DNA of 64,000 nucleotides from Clostridia bacterium (GTDB taxonomy: Bacteria; Bacillota; Clostridia; Christensenellales; Aristaeellaceae), in the NCBI GenBank assembly GCA_017512985.1, contig JAFWEJ010000005.1:124001-188000 (forward strand), read 5' to 3'. Of this stretch, positions 1-15,550 are shown in pieces. The notes beneath the pieces are model-generated. The model was not told the origin of the DNA, ran no database searches, and worked only from the letters and a program-made list of their open reading frames with translations. Position numbers and translations under genes: made by a program. Positions within the stretch are counted from its first letter, which is position 1; each line of letters starts with the position of its first letter.

Positions 1-455
1 GCGATCGCCGATGCGACTGTGCCGGTGACCGGCACGAAGAGCATCAGCGGGATGGGCAGGGATTCCACATACTGCGCGAAAGTCAGCCAGTCGGCGGCGG
101 TACAGGAACTGTCGGTAACCATGACGCCGTAGAATGAAGCAGTCTGGTCCAAGACCGCGTTCAGCGCCCGGGACAGGGTCTCGGACGCCGGATAGCAGGA
201 GACCAGCAGCCGGGCGGGCGCCGGGGAGGCGGCAAAATACTTCAGCGCGGCTTTATACGGTTCCGTATCCGTACCGAATCCCAGCCCGGCCATTCCTTCC
301 GCCGCCTCTGTGCCGGAACTGTACGTCATCAGCCGCCTGGACGCGGTATAACCCGAATCCTTCACCAGCAGCAGGCCGGTGTTGAAGGACGCCGGGGACG
401 CGCCGGCGCGGACCGTGTTGACGACGACGCGGGCAACGGTATTGATGGAAAGCAT
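1..455 (-). CDS. Phage tail sheath protein, DUF3383 family (partial, cut by window edge)
   Basis: About 151 residues of the N-terminus are present; the gene continues past the left edge. The start MLSINTVARVVVNTV and the following alanine-rich alpha/beta sequence match the DUF3383 family of contractile-tail sheath proteins, which polymerise around the tail tube and contract on infection. The ATG at 453-455 is preceded by a GGAGGA ribosome site. It follows the neck-terminator gene on the same strand, the position sheath genes normally hold in this phage type. A direct duplication of an AAATTTTCGGA motif lies in its leader, the second copy supplying part of the ribosome site. The family call is from recalled sequence resemblance and gene order. 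Confidence 0.75.
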   Translation of the reverse strand, partial: MLSINTVARVVVNTVRAGASPASFNTGLLLVKDSGYTASRRLMTYSSGTEAAEGMAGLGFGTDTEPYKAALKYFAASPAPARLLVSCYPASETLSRALNAVLDQTASFYGVMVTDSSCTAADWLTFAQYVESLPIPLMLFVPVTGTVASAI

Positions 456-589
456 AAAATTCCTCCGAAAATTTTTTTATTTTTCCGAAAATTTGTTCAT
501 TTTTACTGGACATTTATTGGACAACAGGGTGTATAAAGGAAATGAACAGGGTTTCTTCTTCATATTTTTCTCCTATATTTCCTTCTCAT

Positions 590-614
590 GGCTCCCTTCG
601 CAACAAAGGGAGCC
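590..614. other. Perfect 9-bp-stem hairpin after the neck-terminator gene
   Basis: GGCTCCCTT, a 7-base loop and AAGGGAGCC abut the stop codon at 615. Read on the gene's own (minus) strand it is followed by purine-rich DNA with no U tract, so it is not a classical terminator there. On the plus strand it is followed by TTATTTT. It could stabilise the upstream mRNA or lower transcription into the sheath gene. Confidence 0.5.
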
Positions 615-1175
615 TTATTTTGCCTGCCGGAAAATAACGACCGCCGGGGCCGGCCGGATGGAATTGCGCGCCGGGGCGGCCTGTTCGCAGCGAACCCTCA
701 GGGATATGGTGAGATCCGCGCGCCTGCGCCAGAGGGAGCCCTCCTCCTCATGGAGAAGAGACGGCTGCGGCGGGTCCGGAACCGGAAAGATCCCGGCGAA
801 GCGGAGAATCTGACGGGGAAATCCGGCGCCGTCCAAATAAAGCATAGACCGGATGCGGTGGGCATATTCCTCCGCGGCCGGTCCGTAGCAAACAATAATC
901 AGCTGATATTTCAGCGTTGTGCAGACAATCGGGAAATGCGTGCCGGCTGTACTGTTCCCCGCGTTGTACTCCGTGGAGACCGGATCCGCGGACAGATCCT
1001 GGAGGACCGTCCAGTAAATGACGTTCCGGTTCCTGGGCGGGCGCGGTACGTTCTCCGGTTCCGCATATGCTTCATGGATCAAGGCGATTGCGTCCGCGGA
1101 GGATTTGTCCAAGTTCAGGCAAGCGCAGAGAGCATCGAAGATCACCGTATGAAAAGAAGAGGATTCAGAGATCAT
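615..1175 (-). CDS. Phage neck terminator (gp12-like / LIC_12616 family) protein
   Basis: A 186-residue protein beginning MISESSSFHTVIFDAL. The central block around VIYWTVLQDL and the later YQLIIVCYGPAAEEYAHRIRSML resemble the LIC_12616/gp12-like neck terminator family, which caps the top of the tail at the head-tail joint in myovirus-like phages. An upstream in-frame start exists, but ATG 1173-1175 has a GGAGGG site at good spacing and was chosen. The gene lies directly upstream of the sheath gene, the usual order. The frame is intact. The function is inferred from family resemblance and synteny. Confidence 0.7.
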   Translation of the reverse strand: MISESSSFHTVIFDALCACLNLDKSSADAIALIHEAYAEPENVPRPPRNRNVIYWTVLQDLSADPVSTEYNAGNSTAGTHFPIVCTTLKYQLIIVCYGPAAEEYAHRIRSMLYLDGAGFPRQILRFAGIFPVPDPPQPSLLHEEEGSLWRRRADLTISLRVRCEQAAPARNSIRPAPAVVIFRQAK

Positions 1176-1315
1176 CTTCACCCTCCCAAATAGCACGTTT
1201 TTTTACATAGAAAAACACTCCCCTGCTGCCTGGCTCTACGATACCCTCGCAGGCCGCATCGCAAATGGAGCGCGCGCATACAATATCATGCAGACCATGT
1301 CCTTTCAACAGCCTA

Positions 1316-1795: not shown

Positions 1796-1926
1796 TCATT
1801 TTCCTCAACAAACAGCCTGAAAGCCTTATTTTTCACTTGCTTTTGCACTCCGGCGTATGGTAATATATGGTAAAGAGGACGAGCTGCACTGACCGGACAA
1901 AACAGCATAGAAAGCGAGTGATACCC

Positions 1927-2124
1927 ATGGGATTTGGTGCCAAATTCCGTGAGTTGCGCGAAAGCCGCGGCTTATCCCAGGCCGCGACAGATGAAATTTT
2001 CGGCCTCACGCGTGGAACCTGGAGCAACTGGGAAAACGGATACAGCGAACCTGAAAAAGAACTTCTGGAGGATATTGCCGGTTTTTTCCACATTCCGGTC
2101 CATACGCTGACAGAGGAGGCCTGA
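1927..2124 (+). CDS. Small XRE-family helix-turn-helix regulator
   Basis: 65 residues that are almost entirely one HTH_3 domain: KFRELRESRGLSQ (helix 1), then AATDEIFGLTRGTWSNWENG (helices 2-3) and a short C-terminal helix. It probably binds DNA as a dimer; targets are unknown. ATG 1927 was chosen because it starts at the domain; an upstream in-frame ATG would add an unrelated 20 residues. A plausible promoter (TTGCTT, 18 bases, TAATAT) precedes it. It is transcribed against the surrounding phage genes and is followed after 4 bases by the HPr-like gene, so the two form a small operon. It is not evidently a phage repressor. Confidence 0.75.
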   Translation: MGFGAKFRELRESRGLSQAATDEIFGLTRGTWSNWENGYSEPEKELLEDIAGFFHIPVHTLTEEA

Positions 2125-2128
2125 TCGT

Positions 2129-2356
2129 ATGAAATGTGTAAACATCAGGCTGAGTGTGAACCGGGACCTGAATCAATTTGTCAGCATTGTGAATCGTTTC
2201 CCGTATGAAATGAACCTATGGTGCGGCCGTCATGTCAGAGACGCAAAATCAGTCCTGGGAATCCTTTCACTGGATCTGGACCGTCCCCTCACACTGATGA
2301 TTCATCATGACAATTGTGAACAATTGCTTGAAGAGCTCAGTCCTTTTATCGAATAG
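2129..2356 (+). CDS. HPr-like protein lacking the phosphorylatable histidine
   Basis: 75 residues with the HPr fold pattern: an N-terminal strand, a helix with NQFVSIVNRFPYEMNL, then VRDAKSVLGILSLDLDRPLTLMIH as in HPr's K-S-x-x-G helix and strand. The active-site R-H-P-A motif of PTS phosphocarriers is missing; the equivalent region is LSVNRDLNQFVSI. This matches the small HPr-like proteins seen beside other genes in Clostridia, which cannot carry His-phosphate. S45 of KSVLG occupies the place of HPr Ser46, so regulatory phosphorylation is conceivable but unproven. It is co-directional with the HTH gene 4 bases upstream. Confidence 0.6.
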   Translation: MKCVNIRLSVNRDLNQFVSIVNRFPYEMNLWCGRHVRDAKSVLGILSLDLDRPLTLMIHHDNCEQLLEELSPFIE

Positions 2357-2374
2357 GACACAGCATGATACCGT

Positions 2375-2881: not shown

Positions 2882-2979
2882 CGGTTATTGTATTCCTCCC
2901 TGAAGCATGATAATATCTGAAACGGCGGAACAGCTTCCCCGCTGTTTGCTTCAATCCAATCATGGAGGACCGTATCATC

Positions 2980-3363
2980 ATGTTCCGGCAGATCATCCGC
3001 TTTTTCGGGCGAATTTTCAAAAGCAAAGGATTCCGCACCGCAGCCAGGATCATTTTCTGGATGGTTGCGGGCTTCTTCCTGTTCAATTTTTTCCACACAG
3101 CATTCATTCTGAAGAGGGAGATCGGGATGTCGTTTCACCAGGCTACTGTCTTCATTCTCGACACGCTCTTATCGCCATTCTCCCGGGCTTTCGTGAGCGT
3201 CATCCTGGGTGTGGTCATCGGCATTATGGGATATTACCGCGGCAGGAAAAAGAAAGCGGCGCAGGAAGCGGAAGAAAAGGCGGCCGAAACCGCCGAAACC
3301 GCTGAACCCGCGCCCGCGCAGGAAGAAGAAATCATAGAGACAAAGCATTATATGTTCCATTGA
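2980..3363 (+). CDS. Small two-helix membrane protein of unknown function
   Basis: 127 residues. Two hydrophobic segments are visible, around IIFWMVAGFFLFNFFHTAFIL and AFVSVILGVVIGIMGYY, followed by a charged cytoplasmic-looking tail rich in Ala-Glu (KAAETAETAEPAPAQEEE). I do not recognise a family. ATG 2980 is placed after a TGGAGG element; an in-frame ATG at 2962 lies on that element and is less likely. It lies on the plus strand, between phage genes read on the minus strand. The following 130 bases before the next gene show no clear terminator. Confidence 0.55.
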   Translation: MFRQIIRFFGRIFKSKGFRTAARIIFWMVAGFFLFNFFHTAFILKREIGMSFHQATVFILDTLLSPFSRAFVSVILGVVIGIMGYYRGRKKKAAQEAEEKAAETAETAEPAPAQEEEIIETKHYMFH

Positions 3364-3492
3364 GGGGGAACGGCGGGGCCGGTCCCCCTGTTCCTTTCCC
3401 TGCTCCGGAAAGGATTCGGGCGGCCGGGCGGAGAAATAATCAGATACAGAAAAGATGAGCGTTATACACCGGGACCGGAAAGGAGTATGGGC

Positions 3493-3795
3493 ATGGGTTT
3501 ATTCGGCAAAAAAACAAGAGTGTCTGATTTCTATTCCGCGCAGGAGATCCAGGCGCTCCAGGCCGTCGTGGCGCCGCAGATCATCACCCGCCTGATGGAT
3601 TTCAACGCCAGAACGCTTTACGAATCGTTCATCCGCGCGGCCGGCGACAGCGGCAGGAAGCTGGACAGGGAAGGCGTGTCCCGGCTCCTCGCGGCGGCGG
3701 AAGGGTTCGCGAAAGCGGATCCCGCCTCAGGAGCGGCGCTGCAGAATGGCATTCAGAAAATGAAAGCCTGGCTGGAGGATCCGTCCAACCACTGA
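3493..3795 (+). CDS. Hypothetical protein, about 100 residues, soluble and helical
   Basis: Starts MGLFGKKTRVSDFYSAQEIQ. No signal peptide or membrane segment; mostly amphipathic helix (LQAVVAPQIITRLMDF, KLDREGVSRLLAAAEGFAK). ATG 3493 has AAAGGAG at 7 bases; an alternative ATG at 3487 is too close to that site. No family is recognised. It is followed by the convergent phage adaptor gene, leaving only 14 bases between stops. It is one of the non-phage genes interrupting the phage structural series. Confidence 0.5.
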   Translation: MGLFGKKTRVSDFYSAQEIQALQAVVAPQIITRLMDFNARTLYESFIRAAGDSGRKLDREGVSRLLAAAEGFAKADPASGAALQNGIQKMKAWLEDPSNH

Positions 3796-3809
3796 CCTGA
3801 AAATCATCT

Positions 3810-4217
3810 CTACGGTACATACATACTGCGGCCGTACAGCCTGATCAGGCTGAGCAGCTGCAGGCCGAAGGCTGTTTCGGCCAGGTCCGCCAGGCCGGAG
3901 GAAACAGAAAATGAAGAGGAGGCGCCGGACGAATACGTCACGGCGACCTCCCCTGCTTTTTTGCTCGCGACGCGCCGCGTTCCGCCGACCTCGGCGAGCT
4001 GCGCTTTCGTGAACGCCGCCCCCTCCGGCGGCGAAGCCCCCGCGTACAGCGTCAGCTTATGCGCCGTATACAGCCTGCGGGCTTCCTCCGCGTCCGCTCC
4101 CGGAAAGCGGGAGAACCGGGCGTTCGCCTGGCGGATATATTCGCTGAGCACCGCCGCCGGCGTGAAGCCGGCGAACTGCGGGTAAAACGCGGTGAATTCC
4201 TCCTGCGTCAAATGCAT
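3810..4217 (-). CDS. Phage head-tail adaptor, DUF4054 family
   Basis: 135 residues. MHLTQEEFTAFYPQFAG at the start, AARRLYTAHKLTLYA in the middle and a C-terminal TAFGLQLLSLIRLYGRSMYV are characteristic of DUF4054, a head-completion/adaptor protein that follows the capsid gene in this phage type. The GGAGG site is one base from the ATG used here; a TTG two codons downstream has better spacing and may be the true start. Three non-phage genes (aminopeptidase, antiporter, LRR protein) now separate it from the capsid genes it normally follows. Confidence 0.75.
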   Translation of the reverse strand: MHLTQEEFTAFYPQFAGFTPAAVLSEYIRQANARFSRFPGADAEEARRLYTAHKLTLYAGASPPEGAAFTKAQLAEVGGTRRVASKKAGEVAVTYSSGASSSFSVSSGLADLAETAFGLQLLSLIRLYGRSMYVP

Positions 4218-4252
4218 GCCTCCGATGTGAAACAAAGCATATTGTTTTTTCG

Positions 4253-4314: not shown

Positions 4315-5538
4315 ATGAAACAGACAATCCTGCGCAGTTACGCGCGCCTGATCGCGCGGGTCGGCGCCAACATCCAGAAGGGACAGGACGTCATCATCAG
4401 ATGCGGCCTGGACCAGCCCCGGTTTGTGGAACTGCTCGTGGACGAGTGCTACAAGGCCGGCGCACGGAAGGTCAGGGTGGAATTCGACCACCAGCCGCTT
4501 GAGAAGCTGCACGTCCGCCACCAGACCGTGACCACCATGGCGAAGGTGGAGGAGTGGGAGAAAGCCCGCCTCCGGCACTGGCAGGATACCCTTCCCTGCC
4601 GCATCTACCTGGCCTCTGAAGATCCCGACGGCCTGAAGGGCATCAACCAGAAGAAGATGGCGAAAGCCGACCGGAAGCGCTGGCCCATTGTCAAACCCTA
4701 CTGGGACGATATGGAAAACAAGTACCAGTGGTGCATCGCGGCGGTTCCCGGCGCGGCCTGGGCCAAAAAGGTCTTCCCCGGCCTGCCCAAAGGCAGGGCG
4801 ATCGAAAAGCTGTGGGAGATGATCCTCTTCACATCCCGCGTCACCGACGATCCCGTGGCAGCCTGGAACGAGCATAACCGGGACCTGCACGACCGCTGTG
4901 CCTACCTCAACAGCCTCGGCATCGCCGAGCTGCATTACAGGGGCGACAACGGCACCGACCTCACCGTGGGCATGATCCCCGAGGCGGAGTTCAAGGGCGG
5001 CGGCGACACCACCCGGAAGGGCATTTTCTTCAACCCCAACATTCCCACCGAGGAGTGCTTCATCTCCCCGATGCGCGGCAAGGCCGAAGGCATCGTCTAC
5101 GCCACCAAACCCCTGTCCTACCAGGGCGAGCTGATTGAGAACTTCTCCGTCCGCTTTGAAAACGGCAAGGCCGTGGAAGTCCACGCCGACCGCAACGAAG
5201 CGCTGCTTCAGCAGATGATCGAAATGGACGAAGGCGCCCCCTACCTGGGCGAGTGCGCCCTGGTTCCCGTGGACTCCCCCATTTCCGAAGCCAACATGCT
5301 GTTCTACGAAACCCTCTTCGATGAGAACGCCGCCTGCCACCTGGCGCTGGGCACGGGTTTCGCCGACACGATCAAAGGCTTCCAGGACAAGACCCTCGAG
5401 GAGTGCCGCGAGCTGGGCGTCAACGAATCCATGATCCATGTCGATTTCATGATCGGCTATGAGGGACTGGATATCGACGCGGTCACCCGCGACGGCAAAA
5501 CCGTGCCGGTCATCCGCAGGGGCAAATGGGCGTTCTGA
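4315..5538 (+). CDS. Aminopeptidase, M29 (AmpS/PepS) family
   Basis: 407 residues, the usual length for M29 enzymes. These cytoplasmic metallo-aminopeptidases release N-terminal residues from peptides with two divalent metals. Family signatures include KGQDVIIRCGLDQPRFVELL at the N-terminus, the RVTDDPVAAWNEHNRDL block, a GGGDTT and EECFISP stretch carrying metal-ligand glutamates, and the C-terminal ALGTGFADTIKG plus MIHVDFMIG. A good GGAG site precedes the ATG. It is probably monocistronic with its own promoter and a strong terminator. A housekeeping-type gene like this is not expected inside a phage head module. Confidence 0.85.
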   Translation: MKQTILRSYARLIARVGANIQKGQDVIIRCGLDQPRFVELLVDECYKAGARKVRVEFDHQPLEKLHVRHQTVTTMAKVEEWEKARLRHWQDTLPCRIYLASEDPDGLKGINQKKMAKADRKRWPIVKPYWDDMENKYQWCIAAVPGAAWAKKVFPGLPKGRAIEKLWEMILFTSRVTDDPVAAWNEHNRDLHDRCAYLNSLGIAELHYRGDNGTDLTVGMIPEAEFKGGGDTTRKGIFFNPNIPTEECFISPMRGKAEGIVYATKPLSYQGELIENFSVRFENGKAVEVHADRNEALLQQMIEMDEGAPYLGECALVPVDSPISEANMLFYETLFDENAACHLALGTGFADTIKGFQDKTLEECRELGVNESMIHVDFMIGYEGLDIDAVTRDGKTVPVIRRGKWAF

Positions 5539-5599: not shown

Positions 5600-6583
5600 T
5601 CAGCGGATGATCGCGAAGGCGATCACGCCCGCGTAGGCCAGGACCATCAGGATACCCTCCGCGCGGTTGATCCGCTTGCCCGCCAGGGCAAAGATCCAGG
5701 TGACGGCCGTGATGGACAGCAGGATCAGCAGGTCCCAGACGGAGGCGACGTTCACCGTCACCGGGTGGATGGCGGCGGAGACGCCGAGGATCATCATCAT
5801 GTTGAAGATGTTCGAGCCGATCACGTTGCCGACGGCCAGCTCCGTTTCCTGCTTCCTTGCCGCCACCAGCGAGGTGACCAGCTCCGGCAGCGAGGTGCCG
5901 ACGGAAACAACCGTCAGGGCGATCAGCGTTTCGGTCATGCCCAGCGCGCGGGCGATCTCCTTGGCGGCATAGACGACCGCCTGGCCGCCCGCGACGATCA
6001 GGACGACGCCGATCAGGATCAGCAGGGCGCACTTCCCCTTGGTCTTTTTGAACCCGAATTCGTTTTCCTCTTCCCGGCGGTTCTTCTTCGCGGAACGCGT
6101 CAGCAGCCAGAGATACCCGGCGAACACGACCAGCAGCGCGATGGCGACGGGCCGCGTTACAGTGCCCGCGACGGATTCCATGTCCATTCCGGACAGCCCG
6201 CCGGTAAAGATCCGGATCCCGCCCATGAGCAGGAACACCGCGAGCGTCGGCACCGTGACAACCGTGAAGTCCTTCTTCAGGACCTTGCCGTCCACCGGCA
6301 CGGGCCGCACGACAGCGCAGACGCCCAGCACCACCAGGATATTGAAGATGTTGGATCCGACCACGTTGCTGAAGGCGATCTCGTTGGATCCCTCAATTGC
6401 CGCGACCGTACTGACCGCCAGTTCCGGCGCGCTGGTGCCCATCGCCACGATCGTCAGGCCGACGATCATCGCGGGGACCCGGAAGATCCGTGCCAGGGAG
6501 GCGCTGCCGTCCACAAACAGGTCCGCGCCCTTGATCAGCGCGGCGAAGCCGGCGGCAAGGATCAGAATATTCAGTATAACCAT
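5600..6583 (-). CDS. Calcium/sodium antiporter (CaCA family, YrbG-like)
   Basis: 327 residues with about ten membrane helices in two homologous halves. Each half carries a CaCA alpha-repeat: VAMGTSAPELAVS with VVGSNIFNILVVLG, and VSVGTSLPELVTS with VIGSNIFNMMMILG. The conserved GTS-PEL glutamates and GSNIFN asparagines bind the cations, so the transporter looks functional. A charged loop (SAKKNRREEENEFGFKKTKGK) separates the halves. ATG 6583 follows AGGAGGG; a longer frame upstream has no ribosome site. It lies on the phage strand but between phage genes; its likely job is calcium extrusion. Confidence 0.88.
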   Translation of the reverse strand: MVILNILILAAGFAALIKGADLFVDGSASLARIFRVPAMIVGLTIVAMGTSAPELAVSTVAAIEGSNEIAFSNVVGSNIFNILVVLGVCAVVRPVPVDGKVLKKDFTVVTVPTLAVFLLMGGIRIFTGGLSGMDMESVAGTVTRPVAIALLVVFAGYLWLLTRSAKKNRREEENEFGFKKTKGKCALLILIGVVLIVAGGQAVVYAAKEIARALGMTETLIALTVVSVGTSLPELVTSLVAARKQETELAVGNVIGSNIFNMMMILGVSAAIHPVTVNVASVWDLLILLSITAVTWIFALAGKRINRAEGILMVLAYAGVIAFAIIR

Positions 6584-6781: not shown

Positions 6782-8263
6782 TTATTCCTCGATCATGTCG
6801 CTCAGGTCCGGGAGGAGCGCCAGCTGCGCCTCGTCGAACGTTTCGGGCCCGATCGCCTCCAGGTCTTCCGGCAGCTCGATCTTCTCCAGGCTCACACACT
6901 TTGAAAAGGCGTAGTTGCCGATGATCTCCACCGGATCGGGGATCACAATCTCCTTCAGGGAGATGCAGAGCATGAACGCGCCTTCGCCGATCTCTTCCAG
7001 GTCTTCCGGCAGTTCGATCTCCTCCAGCATGCTGCAGCCGGAGAAGGTGTTCATGTTGATAACATACAGGCTGGCGGGCAGCGCCATGCTTTTCAGGGAT
7101 TTGCACCTGCAGAAGGCAGACGCGCCGATATAGCTGCAGCGGTCCGGGATCCGGATCTCCTGCAGCGCGGAGCAATCGCTGAACGCGTCGCTGCCGATAT
7201 AGTCCACGGTGTCCGGCAGCGTCAGCTTTTCCAGGCCCGCGCAGCCCATGAACGCTCCGCCGCCGATATAGCGCAGGCCGTCCGGCAGGACAATCTCCTT
7301 CAGGTTTTTGCAGCCGGAGAAGGTGTTCCTGCTGATGGAGGTCACGCCGTCCGGCACCCTGACGGAAACCAGGCCGGCGCAGTTGCGGAACGCCATCTCC
7401 CCGATGGAGGTGACCGATTCCGGCAGGTTCACTTCCTTCAGGCTGTCGCAGCCGGAGAAGGCGCGTTCGGCGATCGATGTGACCCCCTCCGGGAAAGTCA
7501 GGCGCTCCAGCCCGGAGCATTCGAAGAACGCGTCCGAACCGATGGTGGAGATCTCCGTGTCTTCCAGGTTGATTTCCTTCAGGTTCCCGCAGCCGTAGAA
7601 GGCGCGGCGGCCGATCGCGGCCAGCGCGGAACCGTCCTCCTGGTCCGGTTTCCTGATCCGGATCTCCCGGATGTTGTCGCATTCATAGAACGCTTCCGCG
7701 CCGATGATGCGCGTTCCGGCGGCAAGCTTCAGCGTGCCCGCGCCGGCCTGCCCGGAATAATAAACCAGGCGGTGATCGTCGCAGCTGAAGAGAACGCCTT
7801 TATCCTCGTCGTATATCAGGTTTTTGTTCCAGCTGCCGTTGCCGTCCGCGTCGTCGTCGTCCAGGATGATCTCAAACAGCGCTTCGCATCCGGCAAAAGG
7901 ATTCACGCCGATCTCCGTCAGGCTGTCCGGAATGGTGACCGTGTCCAGGCTGGTGCAGCGTTTGAAAACAGAATCGCCAAGGGAGGTGACCCCTTCCGGG
8001 ATGATCACCTCCGTGATGGCGTTATTCGAATGGCAGGCGGAAGGCCCGATCGCCGTGACGGGGACGCCGTCCAGCTCGCCGGGGAAGGCCAGGGTGACGT
8101 CCTGGCCGGTATACCGGGTGATCATGGCCGTTCCGTCTTCCTGCACGATATATGCAAAGTCTCCGGATATGATCTCCTGGCCGGGCAGAACCTCAGCGCC
8201 GGCTGAAAAAAGGGCGCAGCAAAGAAGAAAGCAAATCAGCAGACACGGAAAACGCTTCCTCAT
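6782..8263 (-). CDS. BspA-like leucine-rich-repeat secreted protein
   Basis: 493 residues. A signal peptide (MRKRFPCLLICFLLCCALF to about residue 28) is followed by a short non-repeat domain and about 14 LRR_5 repeats of 22-24 residues with the pattern LKEI-LP-GL--IG--AF--C--L. Such proteins are surface or secreted adhesin-like scaffolds in gut anaerobes. No cell-wall anchor is visible. ATG 8263 has GAGGGGG at six bases. It sits between the antiporter and a small phage gene, with its own promoter. Paralogues occur at 15689-17632 and 36812-38575. Confidence 0.85.
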   Translation of the reverse strand: MRKRFPCLLICFLLCCALFSAGAEVLPGQEIISGDFAYIVQEDGTAMITRYTGQDVTLAFPGELDGVPVTAIGPSACHSNNAITEVIIPEGVTSLGDSVFKRCTSLDTVTIPDSLTEIGVNPFAGCEALFEIILDDDDADGNGSWNKNLIYDEDKGVLFSCDDHRLVYYSGQAGAGTLKLAAGTRIIGAEAFYECDNIREIRIRKPDQEDGSALAAIGRRAFYGCGNLKEINLEDTEISTIGSDAFFECSGLERLTFPEGVTSIAERAFSGCDSLKEVNLPESVTSIGEMAFRNCAGLVSVRVPDGVTSISRNTFSGCKNLKEIVLPDGLRYIGGGAFMGCAGLEKLTLPDTVDYIGSDAFSDCSALQEIRIPDRCSYIGASAFCRCKSLKSMALPASLYVINMNTFSGCSMLEEIELPEDLEEIGEGAFMLCISLKEIVIPDPVEIIGNYAFSKCVSLEKIELPEDLEAIGPETFDEAQLALLPDLSDMIEE

Positions 8264-8349: not shown

Positions 8350-8625
8350 TCAGGCAGGCGTCTCTCCCGCGGATTTCCTCACGGCGCCGCGTTTGCGGCC
8401 CGCGGCGTCGGTTCCTTCCAGCGGGTCTGCCTCCAGCTGTTTCTTCTCCGCCGGAGGAACCGCCGCTTCCAGCGAGCCGTCGTTCACCAGCATCCGGAAA
8501 AGCGGATCCTCCCGGATGGACTCAGGCGCTTCGTGAAAAGTGAGCCTGTTCAGCGGCGTGATCCGGTGGACCAGCTCTCCCTTTTTGTTGTGAAAATCCG
8601 CGCAGACGCGGGAAAGGATCAGCAT
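8350..8625 (-). CDS. Small phage structural-module protein of unknown function
   Basis: 91 residues beginning MLILSRVCADFHNKKGELVHRITP. The first 55 residues look like a compact beta domain (FHNKKGELVHRI, LTFHEAPESIREDPLF) and the tail is basic and Ala-rich. Small proteins of this type commonly follow the major capsid gene in phage clusters, but no named family is recognised. An AAAGGAG site precedes the ATG. The 57 bases between it and the capsid gene carry one copy of an AATTCATAATT repeat. Confidence 0.55.
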   Translation of the reverse strand: MLILSRVCADFHNKKGELVHRITPLNRLTFHEAPESIREDPLFRMLVNDGSLEAAVPPAEKKQLEADPLEGTDAAGRKRGAVRKSAGETPA

Positions 8626-8682: not shown

Positions 8683-9654
8683 TCAGATTGCATCGAGGTA
8701 GCGCACGGTAGACGGATACAGGAACCTGACTTCACTGAACTGCGCGATATAGGGGATCTTGATGCGCATTTCGGAATATTCCGTGTCCATGCGGCGCAGC
8801 GGCTGGGTCAGGTTGAAGCAGACGCGGTCAACGCGGTTCATGTAGACCACCATGCGGTCGCTGCCGCTGCTCCCGGCTCCCGCGCACCACTTGCAGGGAG
8901 AAATTGTCAGGCTGCCGCCCTGCTGGGCGGTAAGGTTGTTCTCCAGCACATAGGTCAGGATGGAGCGTTCCGAATCGTCGGAAACCTTGCGGGTCACCAG
9001 CATGCCGAACTGCTGCACCGGGATCAGGATATGGTTCGGCAGCGCGTCGCCCGAGCAGTCGTTGTCCCGCCAGAGGGAAGAGATTGCGCTGTTGATATCG
9101 TCCAGGATCTCGTCCGCGGTCTTGTGCTGCCATTGCGTGTCCGGGCCGCCGGACGTATGGGCCGCCGCGGCGGAGCGGGCCACATTCGGGTTGTTGATGA
9201 GGCCGGTGGAGGAGACCTTGGCAAAGCCGACATAGACGTTCCGGTCGATCAGCTTGTCGCAGTGGAGCCGGATGCCCTTGTTCAGGAAAGTCTCCGGATC
9301 GCGGCCGACGCTCATCATCTTTTCCCGCTCCAGGGTGGAAAAGGACATGTATTCGGCAAAGTTGAAGGTGCGCGCCACCTGCTTCGCCATGTCCGCCTGG
9401 ATCACGGGAATGTCGTTGGCCGCCTCAAAGAAGAGGTTGTCGTCTTCCCCGCCGGTGGAGGCGTAGGTCACGTCGACGGAGGCGATGGACTCGACCAGGC
9501 CGCCGCCGGTAATGACCGGCATATCCCGCGGCCAGTCCGTGCCGGACAGCGGCTCGAGAATGGTATCGTCCACCTTCTCCAGTTCCTTCATCAGGAAGGT
9601 ATAGGAATCGTTCACCGCCAGGCGGCGGGTCCGGATGGGAGGGGTTTTATACAT
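8683..9654 (-). CDS. Phage major capsid protein, DUF2184 (HK97-fold) family
   Basis: 323 residues starting MYKTPPIRTRRLAVNDSYTF. Features of DUF2184 capsid proteins are visible: a long N-terminal part with SIDVTYAS-like sequence and YMSFSTLEREKMM, the KLIDRNVYVGFAK region, a mid-domain HILIPVQQFGML, and the C-terminal RMVVYMNRVDRVCFNLTQPLRRM and QFSEVRFLYPSTVRYLD. It should form the icosahedral shell. ATG 9654 follows AAAGGAG; the frame remains open upstream without a ribosome site. The frame is complete, with no sign of decay. Confidence 0.85.
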   Translation of the reverse strand: MYKTPPIRTRRLAVNDSYTFLMKELEKVDDTILEPLSGTDWPRDMPVITGGGLVESIASVDVTYASTGGEDDNLFFEAANDIPVIQADMAKQVARTFNFAEYMSFSTLEREKMMSVGRDPETFLNKGIRLHCDKLIDRNVYVGFAKVSSTGLINNPNVARSAAAAHTSGGPDTQWQHKTADEILDDINSAISSLWRDNDCSGDALPNHILIPVQQFGMLVTRKVSDDSERSILTYVLENNLTAQQGGSLTISPCKWCAGAGSSGSDRMVVYMNRVDRVCFNLTQPLRRMDTEYSEMRIKIPYIAQFSEVRFLYPSTVRYLDAI

Positions 9655-9679: not shown

Positions 9680-10180
9680 TTACAGGACGTTCCGTTTGTT
9701 GACAACCGCTTCACAGCAGGAGACGGAACCCGTCCGCGGCCTGCGGACGCGCACGTTCTCCAGCAGCAGGGTCGTTCCGGAGGCGCCCATGTTTGTGACA
9801 AGCGTGCCGTCCGTCTTGCGGATATAGAGCATGCTGCCCTGCACGCCGTTTACGCCCGTTTCCAGGGCAATGCTGCCGCGGACGAGCACCTCCATCACAT
9901 CGCCGGGATGCCAGGCGCTCCGGGGCGGGTCGTTGAACTGTCCCTGCGGGTAAACGTCCGGCGTTTTGTCCCTCACGCTGACGGCAAACCCGAGGAAATC
10001 CGCGAATTCCTGCGGCGACGCGATACTGAAAGGCTCGGCGCCGTTTTCGTTGATGAACACCGGCGCGCCGAACGGAACATCCCTGTCCGAGGCGTTCCGG
10101 ACGGAGATGATGATATTGTCCGCGGAACGCGTGACCGTTCCGGGACTGCCGTATCCGAATATGTTCTGCACTTTACCCAT
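9680..10180 (-). CDS. Phage capsid cement/decoration protein (Gp24-like)
   Basis: 166 residues, beta-rich, with MGKVQNIFGYGSPGTVTRS at the start, a DVPFGAPVFI strand, GFAVSVRDKTP, and WHPGDVMEVLVRGSIALE. The G-x-V-R-G-x-I and P-G-D elements are typical of structural cement proteins that trimerise on the capsid surface. It lies between the scaffold and the major capsid gene, the usual place. A GGAGGG site precedes ATG 10180. Identification is by pattern and position. Confidence 0.65.
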   Translation of the reverse strand: MGKVQNIFGYGSPGTVTRSADNIIISVRNASDRDVPFGAPVFINENGAEPFSIASPQEFADFLGFAVSVRDKTPDVYPQGQFNDPPRSAWHPGDVMEVLVRGSIALETGVNGVQGSMLYIRKTDGTLVTNMGASGTTLLLENVRVRRPRTGSVSCCEAVVNKRNVL

Positions 10181-10202: not shown

Positions 10203-10904
10203 TTACTGTTTCACGTAAGAGATATTGCGCTTTTCCATGATCCGGCGGCCCAGCTCCGCGGACGCCGGCGCCGTCCGTTTCCTTGCGGACGCCAGCGCGG
10301 CATAGGCGTCCGTGCCGGTCGTTCCGCGCTTTTCGGTGCGGCGGATACGGGCGGCGATATCGCCGGCCACCTGCCGCCGGACCTTCGGGGGCATCTTCAC
10401 GAGCGCGGGCCGGACCGCCGCCAGCGCGGCGCGAAGCGCGTCGCCGGCCTCCAGGGTTTCAGACGGTTCTTCCTCTTCCTCCTCTTCCAGGACGACCGAC
10501 GCCACCGGGTCCAGGACCTCCTCCATCATGGCCGCAATTTCTCCGGCAGCAGGATCGGCAGCTTCGGCGGCTTCAATAACTTCTTCCACAGCCTCCGCGG
10601 TTTCTTCAGCAGGATCCTCATCCGCGGCAGGCGCGCTCTCCAGCAGGGAGATGATGCGGTCCAGGCGGGAGATCAGTTCACCCAAAGCCGATTCATCCAC
10701 TGTAACAGTGGTTTCCGGCGTTTCGATAACAGCTGCCGGTTCTTCAATCACCGGAGCTGTTTCCGCGGCAGCCTCTTCCGGTTCCGCTATTTCTGAATTG
10801 TTTTCGTTTTCCGGCTCGAGCATTTCCTCAATGATCCCGGCGACGGTCTCGATGTCGCCGTCCTTGGCCATACGGGCCAGCACTTTGGACAGGGATTTCT
10901 TCAT
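10203..10904 (-). CDS. Phage scaffold-like protein, internal start within the DUF2213 frame
   Basis: Starting at ATG 10904 (MKKSLSKVLARMAKDGDIE), preceded by AAAGGAG at good spacing, this gives 233 residues in the same frame as the longer gene. The sequence is strongly acidic and Ala/Glu-rich (EPEEAAAETAPVIEEPAAVIE; EEEEEEEPSETLEA) with a basic C-terminus (RRTEKRG, RRIMEKRNISYVKQ), typical of scaffolds whose basic tail contacts the capsid protein. The arrangement recalls lambda C/Nu3, where a scaffold is made from an internal start in the protease gene. It may instead be a separate gene joined by an open repeat. Confidence 0.6.
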   Translation of the reverse strand: MKKSLSKVLARMAKDGDIETVAGIIEEMLEPENENNSEIAEPEEAAAETAPVIEEPAAVIETPETTVTVDESALGELISRLDRIISLLESAPAADEDPAEETAEAVEEVIEAAEAADPAAGEIAAMMEEVLDPVASVVLEEEEEEEPSETLEAGDALRAALAAVRPALVKMPPKVRRQVAGDIAARIRRTEKRGTTGTDAYAALASARKRTAPASAELGRRIMEKRNISYVKQ

Positions 10905-11702
10905 GTTGTTCTTTCTCCTTTCAGGTTGGTTTATTGCGATCATCGCAGCCGCTCTCCTCTGTATGTGATTCGTTCCAGCGCTGAAGCGCTGACTCATCAT
11001 CATGTCTTCGCCTTCGGCTTGCCAATCGCGGGCTCCTGCAGCACGGCACCTGTATTCCGCAGACTCAATCGGCGCGACTCCCCGCAGGGGAGCTCGCTTG
11101 TTTCGTCTGACCTCACCTCCTGCGAAGCATCCGCCACTGGCGGTCGCAGGAGGTTCGCCCAAATCAGAGATTTGGACAGGATGCTCGTCCTTTATCGAAA
11201 CGCGGGAACCTGCGCGGCCGGCGTCGACAACCGCCACGTGGTTCCCGCGGATCTGCCGCTGGACATACTGCCCGTTTTCCTCACAGAGCTCGTAGGTATA
11301 GCCGCAGGAAATCTCCCGCTTGCCGTCCTCCAGGATGGCGGTGATCAGCGCCGGGTCGGTGATGATCAGGTCCGCCAGCAGCAGGTCCGATTCCTCCCCG
11401 CTTCCGCGGCGCACATTGTGGGCGTGGCCCTTCTGCAGGGCGCGGATATTGGTGACATCCACGCCCTCCGGCGGATGGTCGTTCGTGACGGGCATTCCCT
11501 CGAAGGACGCGACCGTTGCCGGGGAGAAGACTTCCTCCTCCGGACGGTATACAGGAACAGTTCCGGCACCGCCCAGCCCCAGCTCACCGGGCAGGTATTC
11601 CTGCGCGCCCGTCCGGGCCACCGGCACGTTCAGGCACAGGAGATACCCTTCGGGCTCCCTCTTTGAGATGTTTTCAGACAAACGGGTTCCGTAGTAATGC
11701 AC
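10203..11702 (-). CDS. DUF2213 phage capsid-maturation protein fused in frame to scaffold
   Basis: 499 residues. Residues 1-175 are the DUF2213 domain (LSENISKREPEGYLLCLNVP, TVASFEGMPVTNDHPPEG, AHNVRRGSGE, LLLADLIITDPALI, REISCGYTYE, and RGNHVAVVDAGRAG), thought to act in prohead processing. A linker of about 80 residues is encoded by a palindromic repeat element (about 10935-11170) and stays open. The rest is a Glu/Ala-rich scaffold-like region. GTG 11702 was chosen: its AGGAGG is seven bases away, while an ATG two codons earlier abuts the site. The two parts may be translated separately, because the second half has its own ribosome site. Confidence 0.65.
   Translation of the reverse strand: MHYYGTRLSENISKREPEGYLLCLNVPVARTGAQEYLPGELGLGGAGTVPVYRPEEEVFSPATVASFEGMPVTNDHPPEGVDVTNIRALQKGHAHNVRRGSGEESDLLLADLIITDPALITAILEDGKREISCGYTYELCEENGQYVQRQIRGNHVAVVDAGRAGSRVSIKDEHPVQISDLGEPPATASGGCFAGGEVRRNKRAPLRGVAPIESAEYRCRAAGARDWQAEGEDMMMSQRFSAGTNHIQRRAAAMIAINQPERRKNNMKKSLSKVLARMAKDGDIETVAGIIEEMLEPENENNSEIAEPEEAAAETAPVIEEPAAVIETPETTVTVDESALGELISRLDRIISLLESAPAADEDPAEETAEAVEEVIEAAEAADPAAGEIAAMMEEVLDPVASVVLEEEEEEEPSETLEAGDALRAALAAVRPALVKMPPKVRRQVAGDIAARIRRTEKRGTTGTDAYAALASARKRTAPASAELGRRIMEKRNISYVKQ
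10935..11170 (-). repeat. Palindromic repeat element, copy B (long form)
   Basis: Read on the minus strand it starts GGGCGAACC and has three hairpins: CTCCTGCGA...TCGCAGGAG around CCGCC-AGT-GGCGG, then CTCCCC-TGC-GGGGAG, and near the far end CAGCGCT-TC-AGCGCTG. It shares about 100 bases with copy A in the same order, then extends about 130 bases further. It is open in the frame joining DUF2213 to the scaffold. Exact ends are uncertain. Confidence 0.7.
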
Positions 11703-11729: not shown

Positions 11730-11758
11730 TTGACTCACTGCGGCTCTTCTGGTAAGAT
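11730..11758 (+). promoter_or_regulatory. Promoter of the secreted-protein gene at 11797
   Basis: TTGACT, 17 bases, TAAGAT, 38 bases before the ATG. It begins 21 bases beyond the upstream-most start codon of the divergent DUF2213 gene. Confidence 0.65.
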
Positions 11759-11796
11759 GGATACAGAAAATAAAAAAGCACAGGGAGGACTCATCA

Positions 11797-12426
11797 ATGT
11801 TCAGAAATATCCGGAAACCTCTGGCCCTTCTGCTGGCGATTGCAACCGCCCTCATGATCATGCCGGCCTTCGCCGAAACCGTTACTGTCGACGAACTCCT
11901 CGGCACGCTGGAAGGCGAAACATACACAAACACCTTCCTCGGACTGGGCTGCGACCTGTCGGGTATGCATTTTAATACCAAAGAAGAAATAGAGACCATC
12001 AACAACCTGACAAAGACTCTCCTGACCGAGGACGTCGCTGCCATGGCCGACGCAAACATCACCGTCATGATGGCTGAAGCGCAGGGATCCCAGCAGAGTC
12101 TCATGATCCAGGTCCAGAACATGAAAGAATATGCCGCCACCTACCGGACTATCGGACTGAAGGCCATCGCGGAGACCTCGCTCAGTCAGTACGTTTCCAT
12201 GTTTGAAGCCCAGGGAATGACCGATGTCCAGCTCACCGTAGCCGACCAGGACATCGGCGGCCAGACCTTCACATCCTATAACATGGATTACAATTATCTG
12301 GGGCTGCATATGTATACCAGGCAGGTATGGATGCTGAAAGACGACTACATTGTTTACATCACAGCCACTTCTGCCAGCGAGAATACGAAGGACGAGCTGT
12401 TCACACGCTTCTTCCTGCTGCAGTAA
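11797..12426 (+). CDS. Secreted protein of unknown function inserted in the phage module
   Basis: 209 residues with a clear signal peptide (MFRNIRKPLALLLAIATAL, cleavage likely after AFA). The mature part is a mixed alpha/beta domain with ADANITVMMAEA, SLMIQVQNM, and a C-terminal YLGLHMYTRQVWMLKDDYIVYIT, suggestive of a soluble exported domain; no family is recognised. It has an AGGGAGG-type site, its own promoter and its own terminator. It lies on the plus strand between portal and DUF2213, where related phages often carry a MuF-like minor head gene. It resembles a host gene, not a phage gene. Confidence 0.65.
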   Translation: MFRNIRKPLALLLAIATALMIMPAFAETVTVDELLGTLEGETYTNTFLGLGCDLSGMHFNTKEEIETINNLTKTLLTEDVAAMADANITVMMAEAQGSQQSLMIQVQNMKEYAATYRTIGLKAIAETSLSQYVSMFEAQGMTDVQLTVADQDIGGQTFTSYNMDYNYLGLHMYTRQVWMLKDDYIVYITATSASENTKDELFTRFFLLQ

Positions 12427-12463
12427 ACCGCATACCGGAAGAACAGGCTCCCGTAAACCCGGG

Positions 12464-12490
12464 AAAGCAGGGATCAATCCCCTGCTTTCT
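12464..12490. terminator. Terminator of the secreted-protein gene, overlapping the portal gene's end
   Basis: AAAGCAGGG, loop ATCAAT, CCCCTGCTTT, then a T-rich run. The right arm lies within the last codons of the convergent portal gene (stop at 12474), so the hairpin serves the plus-strand gene while overlapping phage coding DNA. Confidence 0.75.
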
Positions 12491-13892
12491 TTTTTATGCC
12501 TGCCTCTTCCTCCAGCTTTGTATAGACTCCCAGTTCCCCGCCGCGGCTTTTGAGCTCCGCAAGAGCCTGGTCCCGGGTGAGCAGGCCGCACCTGAACGCT
12601 TCTATGACATCCGCGGAAAGCGTCCGCACCAGCTCCGCGCGCTCCGCGGGGCCGGCCGTCATGGCCGGTTCAAAAACAAACTCCAGGCCGCCGGGCGCTT
12701 CACCCCAGCAGGAGACGGCCATCACCGGCAGGAGCTTCTCCAGCGCCGGCCGCAGCATTCGCTCCTGCAGGGACGCGATCATGTCGTAATAGTTCCGCAG
12801 GTCCGACTCTCCGGTGGCGTTCATTCCCTGGGGAGAGCGGCCGAAGAGCTTTGTCGCGGGAATCTCCGCCGCGCCGGCCATATCCATCATGAACTGTTCA
12901 TAGATCCCGCTCAGCCCGGCAAAGGAATAGGCGTGGGTTTCAAAGGAATCGTCCCGGGAAAGCAGCTGGATGCCGAAGGACGTGCGGAAGCGGTTTTCCA
13001 GCCCCATGGCGTATTCCACGCTCTGCCTCTGTTCCTCGGTGCCGGCGCTGAGCACATCCCCGCAGTCCGACATCTTCAGGGTTGTGATGTTTGCCTGGAA
13101 GATCAGCTGGGCGATGTTCGCGGACGCGGCGCTGCGCTTGAGCAGCTCGTCCATGATATGCTCCATCTCGCTGGCGCCCCAGAAGTTTTCGCGGACCATC
13201 TCCATGCGCGGCAGCTCCCGGCCGATGAAGCGAAGCACCCGGGAATGGTGCAGCGTCACGCTGCGGCAGTTATCCGTATCCAGGTTCACAGTATAGCTTT
13301 CCGGCAGGCCGAAGTCCGGATCGTCCAGGTCGGAAACCAGTTCCAGGGACGGTTCGATTCCCTGCGCCCGGTCCAGCACCAGCAGGCCCTGGAAACAGTC
13401 CGGCAGGAGCCTGTCCGTATCCAGCGGCTGATCCAGCCGGTCCTCCTCGCCCCGGATCACCATGAGCGCCAGGGAACCGCCGTAGAGCCGCGCCCACCGC
13501 ACCGCGTTGGTGATCTCCTGCTTCACGCTGTGGCGGGCCTCCAGGCGGCGCAGCGCGTGAAGCTGTTCTTCCGTCACGGAGGCGGACAGCCTGTACCAGG
13601 CGCGGGTCATGTCTTCGGAGGGCATGTCGATGATGCGCATCGTCAGCCAGGACTCGCGGTACATGGAGGTAAGGAGTTCCGGATCGGAGGTCAGGCCGGA
13701 TCGGAGAAAGGTGCCGGAGGACAGCAAAGGGGAATCCTCGCCCAGAAAAGCGGCGGCGTTGGAATAACCGTCGGAAGAAAAACGGGAGCGGGATGGCGCC
13801 TGCCGGGGGAGATCCTTCGGCTCTGCCTGGCAGCTTTGCCCGGGATGACGCCCGAAAGAACGGGTGTCTCTTTTTGTCTGGTTTTTCTTCAT
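12474..13892 (-). CDS. Phage portal protein, DUF1073 (Acb1-like) family
   Basis: 472 residues. Diagnostic stretches are ESWLTMRIIDMPSEDMTRAW, VRWARLYGGSLALMVI, LHHSRVLRFIGRELP, NIAQLIFQANITTLKM, and the family hallmark LFGRSPQGMNATGESDLRNYYD. The portal forms the dodecameric ring through which DNA is packaged and to which the neck attaches. It begins immediately after the large terminase stop, so the two are probably translationally coupled. No frameshift or truncation is visible relative to family length (about 430-480 residues). Confidence 0.88.
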   Translation of the reverse strand: MKKNQTKRDTRSFGRHPGQSCQAEPKDLPRQAPSRSRFSSDGYSNAAAFLGEDSPLLSSGTFLRSGLTSDPELLTSMYRESWLTMRIIDMPSEDMTRAWYRLSASVTEEQLHALRRLEARHSVKQEITNAVRWARLYGGSLALMVIRGEEDRLDQPLDTDRLLPDCFQGLLVLDRAQGIEPSLELVSDLDDPDFGLPESYTVNLDTDNCRSVTLHHSRVLRFIGRELPRMEMVRENFWGASEMEHIMDELLKRSAASANIAQLIFQANITTLKMSDCGDVLSAGTEEQRQSVEYAMGLENRFRTSFGIQLLSRDDSFETHAYSFAGLSGIYEQFMMDMAGAAEIPATKLFGRSPQGMNATGESDLRNYYDMIASLQERMLRPALEKLLPVMAVSCWGEAPGGLEFVFEPAMTAGPAERAELVRTLSADVIEAFRCGLLTRDQALAELKSRGGELGVYTKLEEEAGIKKKAGD

Positions 13893-15140
13893 TTATCTCC
13901 TGAACCGCGTAGCGCGGGTGTGGCAAAGGTAACGCAGCGCGTCCATGGCGTGGTCGTGGTCCTTAAGGGGGCGTTCCTCGCCGCGCTGGCGGGCTTTGTC
14001 GTCCCAGACGTAGCTGTGGATTTCCCGCAGAAGTGCGGGGCAGCGCTTCCGGTCCGCGCGGACCAGGCGGCTGCCGATCAGCACCGCCGTGGTCGCGATG
14101 CCCTCCCGGACGTCGTTCTTCGCGTCCAGCACGCGGAACCCGCGGTTGCGCAGCTCCGCCTTGAAACTGGCGGCGCTGGGATCCACGATGACCTGGATGT
14201 TCCGGTCCCCGTCCAGGAAGGCGGCCAGGTCGTCCGCGTATTCCGCGTCGGTCTTCTGGCGCCGCCGGGCAGCGGAATCCCAGTAATACTCGTTCATAAT
14301 CCAGAAAGTTCTTCCGTCGTCCCGTACATCCAGGAAGACGCAGGGGTTCACCGTGCCGTAATCCACGGCGCAGAAACGGCGCATGCCGCGAAACGGCAGA
14401 TCCTCCTCCGCCCGCTCCTCCCGCAGGAAGGTATTGGCGCTGTCGTCCCACATGGGATAGACGGCGCCTTCCGCGCTGACCCATTCGCCGAGGATGTACT
14501 GGCGGTAAAAAACGCCCGAAAAGCTTCGGGCGTAGCTCTCCCGGATCCGCGGGGAGAGGGTCAGGTTGTCGTCCATGGTGAAGTGGAGCCGGTACAGGCC
14601 GATCTCGTCCGCCCGGTCGATGAAATCCGTCTTGAGGTAATGGTACGCGCCGTTCGGGTTGCAGTTCAGGAAAATGCGGCTGCCCTCCACGGAACAGCGT
14701 CCGATCATCTGGTCGATAAAGGACCGGGGAAACAGCGCCGCCTCGTCGGCGTAGGCGCCTGCGGCGGTCATGCCCTGGAGTTTGTCCTGGGCGTTGTCCT
14801 TGTCCGCGCCGAACAGGTAATAGCTGTTCCCGCCGATAATCAGGCGGCCCTCTCCCCGCTTCCATTCCGCGGGAATGCCCAGGGTTTCCAGCATGGCCGT
14901 CATCGGGCCGAGCACATTGCGCGCCAGCGCGCCGGAGGTGACCCCTGCCAGGATGAAATCCTGACCGCGGAAACTGTCCAGGCTCCAGAGCAGGAAGGAA
15001 AGGATCATCGCCACGGTCTTTCCGCTGCGGATGGCGCCGTCCGCCAGGACGATCCGCCGGTCCGCGTATCCGGATCCCGGCCGCCACCAGTTCAGCAGCT
15101 GGCGCTGTTTGCTCGAAAATGGCCGGAAGGTGAAACTCAT
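13893..15140 (-). CDS. Phage terminase large subunit (PBSX family)
   Basis: 415 residues. The ATPase domain has Walker A GAIRSGKT near residue 35, the LFGADKDNAQDKLQG motif, and Walker B-like AGAYADEAALF near residue 130. NCNPNGAYHYLK follows. The C-terminal nuclease region has FCAVDYGTVNPCVFLD and IVDPSAASFKAELRNRG, with the Asp residues expected for the RNase H-like fold. It drives DNA packaging. It overlaps the small subunit by 4 bases (ATGA) and abuts the portal gene, a tight packaging operon. All catalytic motifs appear intact. Confidence 0.92.
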   Translation of the reverse strand: MSFTFRPFSSKQRQLLNWWRPGSGYADRRIVLADGAIRSGKTVAMILSFLLWSLDSFRGQDFILAGVTSGALARNVLGPMTAMLETLGIPAEWKRGEGRLIIGGNSYYLFGADKDNAQDKLQGMTAAGAYADEAALFPRSFIDQMIGRCSVEGSRIFLNCNPNGAYHYLKTDFIDRADEIGLYRLHFTMDDNLTLSPRIRESYARSFSGVFYRQYILGEWVSAEGAVYPMWDDSANTFLREERAEEDLPFRGMRRFCAVDYGTVNPCVFLDVRDDGRTFWIMNEYYWDSAARRRQKTDAEYADDLAAFLDGDRNIQVIVDPSAASFKAELRNRGFRVLDAKNDVREGIATTAVLIGSRLVRADRKRCPALLREIHSYVWDDKARQRGEERPLKDHDHAMDALRYLCHTRATRFRR

Positions 15141-15550
15141 GCCCCGCCGCCTTCCTGTTCCGTTTCCGGAAACAGCTCCCGCATTTCCTCCCGCGTGGGC
15201 GCCATGGCGGCGTTCAGCGTCCGGATGGCGGCTTCCGCGTTCTCCCGGGGATCCTTTCCCGCGTCCGGCAGGAAGCGGTTATACTGCTGGGAGATGACCG
15301 TGGCGCTTTTCTTCAGCTGGTCAAAGCTCGCCCACCGGATGGCGATGAGGCCGTCCTGGCGGATCATCCGGAGCATTTCCTCCAGCGGGCGGCGGTAGGT
15401 CTTCCGGCACCAGGCCGCCAGTTTCTTCTCCGTGGTGCCGATATAACCGAGGATCTCCTCCGGGGCGCACTGCAGCGCTCCCAGTTCCTCAAACAGCTCC
15501 TTTGTCAGTTCGCGGCGCAGGCCGCGCAGGGCAGCGGGTTCTCCGGGCAT
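15137..15550 (-). CDS. Phage terminase small subunit-like protein
   Basis: 137 residues, helical. The middle carries APEEILGYIGTTEKKLAAWCRKTY, an HTH-like segment that would recognise packaging-site DNA, followed by a helical oligomerisation region. ATG 15550 follows AGGAGG at seven bases; the open frame extends further but without a ribosome site. It is the first gene of the minus-strand phage run, overlapping terL by 4 bases. The assignment rests on the HTH-like segment and its position next to the large subunit. Confidence 0.72.
   Translation of the reverse strand: MPGEPAALRGLRRELTKELFEELGALQCAPEEILGYIGTTEKKLAAWCRKTYRRPLEEMLRMIRQDGLIAIRWASFDQLKKSATVISQQYNRFLPDAGKDPRENAEAAIRTLNAAMAPTREEMRELFPETEQEGGGA

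Follow-up and report, generated by a model that had tools for sequence, protein, structure and literature searches.

A probably gene transfer agent-like phage gene cluster with a contractile tail, interleaved with host-type genes, in a genus of gut Clostridia

The stretch of DNA analysed here, which we call the window, is 64,000 nucleotides long and corresponds to positions 124001-188000 of contig C16 of a Clostridia bacterium genome (G000; 2.63 Mb in 17 contigs, 89.67% complete). One end of it holds the head and packaging genes of a contractile-tailed phage, with host-type genes lodged between them. The complete cluster has 25 phage genes and runs from terS at window position 15,622 to a holin gene 13.9 kb to the left of the window; the tail, baseplate and lysis genes that the first-pass annotation proposed to seek in this direction are indeed found there. 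The cluster spans 29.5 kb, including 16.0 kb of phage coding sequence. The genes follow the usual phage order and their frames in the window are open.

All the phage genes in the window lie on the minus strand. The first in reading direction is terS (15137-15622, likely start 15550), which has a sigma70-like site at 15647-15618 (11/12). Its product has 11 orthologues with 42 invariant columns and looks like a small terminase with a helix-turn-helix. The large terminase gene, terL (13893-15140), has intact ATPase and nuclease motifs, and the motif residues, which we take to be the Walker residues and the acidic residues of the nuclease, are invariant in 22 of 22 genus sequences. The terL coding sequence also contains a strong terminator-like hairpin on its coding strand (14533-14512). 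Next come the genes for the portal (12474-13892; phrog_146, E 8.1e-105), a head maturation protease/scaffold (10203-11702), a virion structural or cement protein (9680-10180; phrog_563), the major capsid protein (MCP; 8683-9654) and a small conserved protein of 91 aa (8350-8625) whose position is kept in most mapped relatives. These are followed by a DUF4054-type head completion gene (3810-4235; phrog_302), neck1/tail completion (2375-2881; phrog_222), a head protein (1316-1795), a 193-aa neck/tail terminator protein (615-1196) and the N-terminal part of the tail sheath (1-455; the gene, C16:123337-124455, extends about 0.66 kb beyond the left edge of the window).

The PHROGs families matched on this strand (large terminase, portal, head maturation protease, major head, virion structural, neck1/tail completion, head protein and tail sheath) bear out the first-pass description of these genes. 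The PHROGs scan gave no match at E<=0.01 for TerS and the 91-aa protein, and only a weak one for the neck gene (E 0.0065), which has orthologues in relatives; these three were assigned by position and conservation in relatives. The labels DUF2213, DUF4054 and cement, in part those of the first-pass annotation, are used here as presumptive names. Leftward of the sheath lie the tube, the tail assembly chaperone (phrog_1688), a tape measure of 269 aa (phrog_167, E 1.1e-6), a gene in the LysM position, baseplate hub- and wedge-like genes and a gpI-like gene; a gpV-like gene had no match in the PHROGs scan. At the lysis end are genes for an endolysin with NlpC/P60 and PG_binding_1 domains, for a small protein with a coiled coil that scores below the Pfam cut-off, and for a holin of the Phage_holin_1 family (C16:110113-110379). 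Gene calls were made with our own codon-usage script.

Gaps of more than 300 bp open nine of the 24 junctions in the G000 cluster. Four of these are in the window, in line with the first-pass count of at least four: portal-protease (771 bp), 91 aa-DUF4054 (4114 bp), DUF4054-neck1 (928 bp) and neck1-head (579 bp). The genes that fill them are much as first described. A secreted-type protein without a Pfam match (11797-12426) is antisense to the phage genes, on the plus strand, where there is also a terminator-like sequence at 12461-12491. The largest gap holds an M29 aminopeptidase (4315-5538, plus strand, antisense; Pfam, E 2e-154), a Na/Ca exchanger (5600-6583, minus strand; Pfam) and a BspA-type leucine-rich repeat (LRR) protein (6782-8263; Pfam) on the strand of the phage genes. 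Further plus-strand inserts are a small protein (3487-3795) and a small membrane-type protein (2962-3363), both without Pfam matches, and an XRE regulator with an HPr-like protein whose Pfam score falls slightly short of the cut-off (1867-2356). Homologues of the membrane-type protein occupy other positions in the clusters of two relatives, G002 and G017. The LRR gene sits at the identical junction in ten other genomes (G017, G023, G036, G008, G001, G004, G039, G010, G003 and G038), three of them from a more distant clade, and because the junction is kept in this way the protein may be a working part of the phage-derived system. By eye, the inserts of G017, G002, G023 and G036 resemble ordinary host genes, e.g. 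HU, a polysaccharide flippase, acetyltransferases, a sigma factor, phosphoesterases and secreted proteins. G002, G023, G036 and G001 all have an HU gene in their clusters; in G044 a relative with 85% identity to this gene lies far from the cluster.

How widespread is this arrangement? The MCP was found in 31 of 45 genus genomes (in some only as fragments), TerL in 29 and either of the two in 35. Among the 13 genus genomes that are at least 90% complete, 12 have the MCP and the thirteenth, G032, has TerL. Outside the genus the MCP occurs in one of 75 relatives (G052, 46% identity), and an order-level sample of 297 genomes gave only six MCP matches at E<=1e-20, every one within the genus. The relatives are Clostridia or Clostridiales metagenome-assembled genomes, several of ruminant source. 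Eight species (G000, G017, G002, G023, G036, G008, G001 and G039) have a CobW-type gene pair, named by eye, at about 1-6.5 kb from the terS end of the cluster; in the window this pair, which marks a shared locus, occupies 18693-20776 on the plus strand, in the flank outside the cluster. G002, G023 and G036 carry the corresponding 25-gene set beside the same CobW genes as G000.

Most of these genomes are metagenome assemblies, which could mean that phage and host contigs were wrongly joined, a concern already raised in the first-pass annotation. Against this, equivalent interleaving is found on the 3.3-3.6 Mb contigs of G002, G023, G036 and G044, the last with its cluster at another place. Since the genomes of G023 and G036 each form one contig, of 3.4-3.6 Mb, we regard misassembly as excluded with near certainty. 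The span of the cluster is 29.5-43.7 kb in G000, G002, G023, G036 and G001. Compact copies also exist: in G009, G042 (contig C9) and G024 the cluster spans 16-20 kb and is 76-93% phage coding. By eye, host-like genes lie on both sides of the compact copies in G009 and G042, and in the downstream flank of the G024 copy, the only one readable there.

Four IMG/VR contigs, L040-L043, are filed as viral and carry this cluster. They may be pieces of bacterial chromosome, which suggests that such clusters may get filed as viruses. Two of them, L040 and L043 (MCP 84 and 82%), have empty sites at junctions that are filled in G000. The gap between DUF4054 and neck1 is -4 bp in both, versus 928 bp in G000; between sheath and tube it is 12 and 20 bp versus 3071 bp; between the 91-aa gene and DUF4054, 38 and 45 bp versus 4114 bp; and between tape measure and LysM, -4 and 2 bp versus 1282 bp. 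These contigs have gaps of their own, at neck1-head (1012 bp, L043), tube-chaperone (698 bp, L040) and chaperone-tape measure (748 bp, L043). The sheath-tube insertion of G000 contains a separate copy of the 3' end of the sheath gene (C16:121132-121317, 2.7-2.9 kb left of the window), with 89% identity over 171 bp to the sheath of G000 itself and at most about 82% to the other sheath genes in the comparison, and G036 has an 872-bp duplication around neck1. Both are possible traces of how inserts arrived.

The inserts are strongly biased in their orientation. They are antisense to the phage genes in 107 of 126 cases (85%), versus 54 of 113 flanking genes (48%; Fisher p 1.3e-9, pooled over five lineages with G036 and G001 left out as near-copies of G023). 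Intrinsic terminators were found for 5 of 76 phage genes that face an insert, versus 56 of 129 antisense inserts (p 4.7e-9), in a count over seven genomes that include G036 and G001 and are not independent; among random windows the count is 2 of 300. Behind the holin gene there is a strong terminator in G000 and G002 and none in G023, G036, G001 and G044; the G017 stretch ends earlier. By eye, without a formal motif search, no common promoter motif was seen upstream of phage units in G000, G023 and G002; what G023 and G002 do have there is short AT-rich repeats. Because the inserts are antisense and terminators on the phage strand are few inside the cluster, the simplest reading suggested by these data is that one late transcript may read through across the antisense genes. 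The gene transfer agent (GTA) cluster of Caulobacter is reportedly controlled by anti-termination.

No internal stop occurs in any of the 25 frames of G000, G002, G023 and G036; this intact set speaks against a prophage early in dispersal, one of the two possibilities first proposed for this locus. The ratio of nonsynonymous to synonymous substitution (dN/dS, NG86 method, up to five species pairs) is 0.00-0.48 across the 25 genes, from which we infer that all of them are under purifying selection. Between G000 and G017, dS is 0.43-1.28 for 21 phage genes versus 0.29-0.71 for eight host-type genes, two of them inside the cluster. The gene trees share many bipartitions with that of RpoB: 13 of 18 for TerL (n=21), 8 of 13 for MCP (n=16) and 6 of 10 for the sheath (n=13). 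The Spearman correlations with RpoB distances are 0.31, 0.71 and 0.80, respectively, with Mantel counts of 2/1000, 0/1000 and 0/1000. For these sets short or fragmentary genes and extra copies were dropped, and a partial copy in G037 was unused; RpoB frames were chosen by an RpoB motif, and RpoB is missing in 6 of 30 genomes. The trees point to a descent that is largely, though not strictly, vertical.

In some genomes the capsid gene has been invaded. The MCP gene of G010 is split near residue 105 by an insert of about 21 kb (L079-L080; G010:C40, approximately 24668-45780). By eye, the insert has two serine-recombinase genes at one end and genes resembling sugar transport and glycosidases. We also considered the split capsid matches as a 26-aa duplication and rejected this, since the sequence has an insertion near residue 105 and the overlap is a spurious alignment. 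Immediately upstream of the C-terminal part of the MCP gene, G011:C32, G001:C6 and G037:C10 have recombinases 98-100% identical to these, the G037 copy being partial and at a contig end. The MCPs of G011, G001 and G037 differ by 14-34% from that of the window, and the pattern fits a recent spread of the element between species. On the G001 contig the N-terminal MCP part and the cement gene are absent, and the protease gene is mostly missing; the G004 and G016 contigs stop at the same MCP residue, and G016 has an intact MCP besides. The element should silence the cluster that it enters.

An integrative element with large serine recombinases in the capsid gene of four genomes raises the idea of a helper, i.e. 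that virion genes are kept to package another mobile element instead of random host DNA. We consider this very improbable: the element interrupts the capsid gene, and its recombinase is found at >=96% identity in only 3 of 150 relatives, with the partial G037 copy seen separately. No partner conserved across the genus was noticed, although no systematic search for one was made.

Are these clusters instead ordinary resident prophages of the genus, some of them lately interrupted and decaying? There is a related true prophage, G042:C17, with an integrase and a tape measure of 1539 aa, and G041, G012 and G021 have several MCP copies each. Some genes are broken in some genomes, and the G000 cluster has two XRE-type regulators within it or next to it (window 1867-2124 and C16:109069-109443). 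However, no integrase of the kind expected within or beside a temperate prophage was found in the clusters searched. The tyrosine integrase family PF00589 is absent from the clusters of 16 genomes, the nearest match being at G010:C40:76976, about 26 kb beyond TerS. The large serine recombinase family PF07508 is absent from the clusters of 15 genomes, a set that leaves out G001, G010, G011 and G037, where the invading element carries serine-recombinase genes. In the clusters that we read by eye, with no gene-by-gene scan, no replication genes were seen in or beside them, and none for tail fibres in the stretch that separates the gpI-like gene from the lysis genes. The eight-species locus, purifying selection on 25 genes, largely host-like trees and two compact copies with host-like genes at both ends also argue against resident prophages, which we hold to be improbable.

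The true prophage makes a useful comparison. G042:C17 has the same head-to-tail order as the clusters and a related capsid (45% identity); the capsid of the Agathobaculum phages AB434P2/P3 is related as well (39.5%). In G042:C17 the gpV- and gpI-like proteins have 299 and 256 aa, versus 94-138 and 136-153 aa in the clusters, and the gpJ-like protein has 399 aa versus 305-312 in most clusters, with G009, G019 and G024 close to it (357-391). The tape measure, 269 aa in G000, is 173-461 aa in relatives. The Agathobaculum phage records are 44-45 kb long; AB434P2, labelled partial, has a gene of about 512 aa in the tape-measure position, and because of this counterpart the contrast with G000 is smaller. 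The prophage (L103-L105) looks complete and, by eye, has an apparent reverse-transcriptase gene near its tail-end genes.

We compared the cluster with known domesticated phages. Tailocins are not known to have capsid or packaging genes, whereas here the head and terminase set is complete, conserved and under purifying selection, so the tailocin-like element suggested at first is, taken alone, a poor fit. PBSX of Bacillus subtilis packages host DNA and has a contractile tail and a similar gene order, together with tail fibres and a compact operon; here no fibre gene was seen and the operon is opened. Set against the six GTA criteria in PMC9662315, the particle proteins derive from tailed phages and the element is fully endogenised, given the eight-species locus and the lack of an integrase in the clusters searched, the four invaded ones apart. 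Vertical descent alongside the host, a third criterion, agrees with the trees only in part. For the packaging of mostly random host DNA the invariant TerL motifs are an indirect hint, and for an element that exceeds what a head can hold the cluster spans of 29.5-43.7 kb are the relevant figure. The resemblance to RcGTA, BaGTA and BhGTA lies in an endogenised head-tail cluster, apparently mostly vertical inheritance and a similar amount of virion genes, the BhGTA cluster being 16.3 kb according to PMC9662315, against 16.0 kb of phage coding in G000. The differences are the contractile tail, the gut Clostridia host and the many antisense host genes in the operon; in addition, the present cluster is known from its genes alone.

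FpGTA of Faecalibacterium resembles the cluster in its structural and lysis genes. PMC12946183 describes it as probably podovirus-like, with two loci of 10.5 and 5.5 kb and particles shown, and counts it as the second Gram-positive GTA-like element after PBSX. The cluster reported here differs in its contractile tail, its single locus and its purely genomic basis. The same paper reports GTA-like packaging in Christensenellaceae, in 3 of 25 events, for which its section 9 names no gene cluster. Our own literature search for a contractile or clostridial GTA recognised none as this cluster, with subscription journals mostly outside its reach. To our knowledge, few GTA-like elements are known outside the Alphaproteobacteria. 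The cluster belongs with the known kinds RcGTA, FpGTA and PBSX, as a variant.

The likeness to PBSX brings with it another possibility, a killer particle made by a defective phage that the host has domesticated: it would package host DNA and, without delivering it, act as a bacteriocin. The contractile tail, the lysis module and an architecture close to that of PBSX favour this, and PBSX is itself described, in PMC12946183, as GTA-like and not injecting DNA. A killer needs target recognition, though, and the tail fibre genes of a PBSX-like element were not seen by eye between the gpI-like and lysis genes in the copies read; a fibre could be coded elsewhere. A killer particle is the more credible of the alternatives, yet still unlikely.

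With fair though not full confidence, we favour a different explanation, that the cluster is a contractile-tailed prophage domesticated into a largely vertically inherited, particle-making GTA-like element. Its domestication is well supported, and the first proposal of a long-resident, insertion-tolerant GTA-like element agrees with the eight-species locus, the purifying selection, the largely host-like trees and the lack of an integrase in the clusters searched, the invaded ones aside. The cluster probably makes a DNA-packaging particle and is probably not a decaying virus. A GTA-like role is the best candidate mechanism, which is to say GTA-like and not a proven GTA. We envisage that the ancestor of the genus, or a lineage close to it, domesticated a contractile-tailed prophage, which would have lost its integration and replication genes and, as far as is visible, its tail fibres, while retaining the head, packaging, short contractile tail and lysis functions. 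Since then it would have been inherited mostly with the chromosome. The particle, if formed, would most likely package pieces of host DNA and may deliver them to other cells. In some lineages ordinary host genes were presumably inserted between the phage genes, mainly antisense. Transcription may start at a promoter before terS and read across the antisense inserts to the holin end; antisense genes would then be tolerated, and same-strand genes with terminators selected against.

A number of observations weigh against the domesticated, GTA-like explanation. Fourteen of 34 same-strand inserts have terminators, which would block simple read-through, and only two of seven cluster-end genes have one. 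Neither MCP nor TerL was found in 10 of the 45 genomes, all of them <90% complete. The neighbours at the holin end differ between G000, G002 and G023/G036; in the flanks compared, only near relatives have them in common, and the gene order is partly different in G018, G019, G042_C9, G003, G009, G010 and G039. The exact RpoB topology is rejected by the approximately unbiased (AU) test for TerL (p 3.8e-5) and the sheath (0.026), and not rejected for MCP (0.092). The general decay in relatives that the first-pass annotation would have taken as a refutation was not observed, but single genes are broken in some genomes. Stops were flagged in G009 TAC, G010 BPx, the portal of G041_C18 and G039, D4054 of G021_C57 and G016_C92, G052 NECKT and L043 LysM; the sheath is broken in G012_C39 and the MCP interrupted in four genomes. 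Five of 100 frames counted as intact have no start codon near the expected place according to the gene-calling script. The amino-acid cost signature of GTAs is absent: compared with one prophage, 9 of 18 genes have less carbon per residue (Wilcoxon p 0.52). We found no receptor-binding gene. One of the two XRE-type regulators of the G000 locus may act as a repressor. Finally, TerS here appears to keep its helix-turn-helix, unlike the FpGTA TerS, which according to PMC12946183 has no obvious DNA-binding domain.

A more specific version of the GTA-like explanation is put forward tentatively, at somewhat less than even confidence. This is a genus-wide contractile GTA with a fibre-less short tail, expressed from a 30-44 kb read-through operon that hosts a dozen to about thirty antisense host genes, and whose capsid gene is the integration site of the invading element, by which it is switched off in some species. 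More generally, a GTA-like element with a contractile tail in 35 of 45 species genomes from a gut lineage known mostly from ruminant samples would suggest an additional path for genes to move between rumen bacteria. The inserted antisense genes are themselves a natural experiment on the expression and tolerance of a domesticated phage operon.

Some minor features of the locus remain to be described. In the maps, LRR matches below 150 bits and matches that overlap a better one were dropped. The CobW-type protein at 18693-19829, again named by eye, contains a His/Asp-rich stretch of great length. Two of the phage genes, those for the head protein (1450-1554) and the protease/scaffold (11057-11161), have in-frame copies of a dispersed repeat of about 105 bp, and both copies fold strongly (z about -3.9). 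Ten further matches, some partial, are found in G000 at 75-84% identity to the window copy. The repeat is reminiscent of the Rickettsia palindromic elements.

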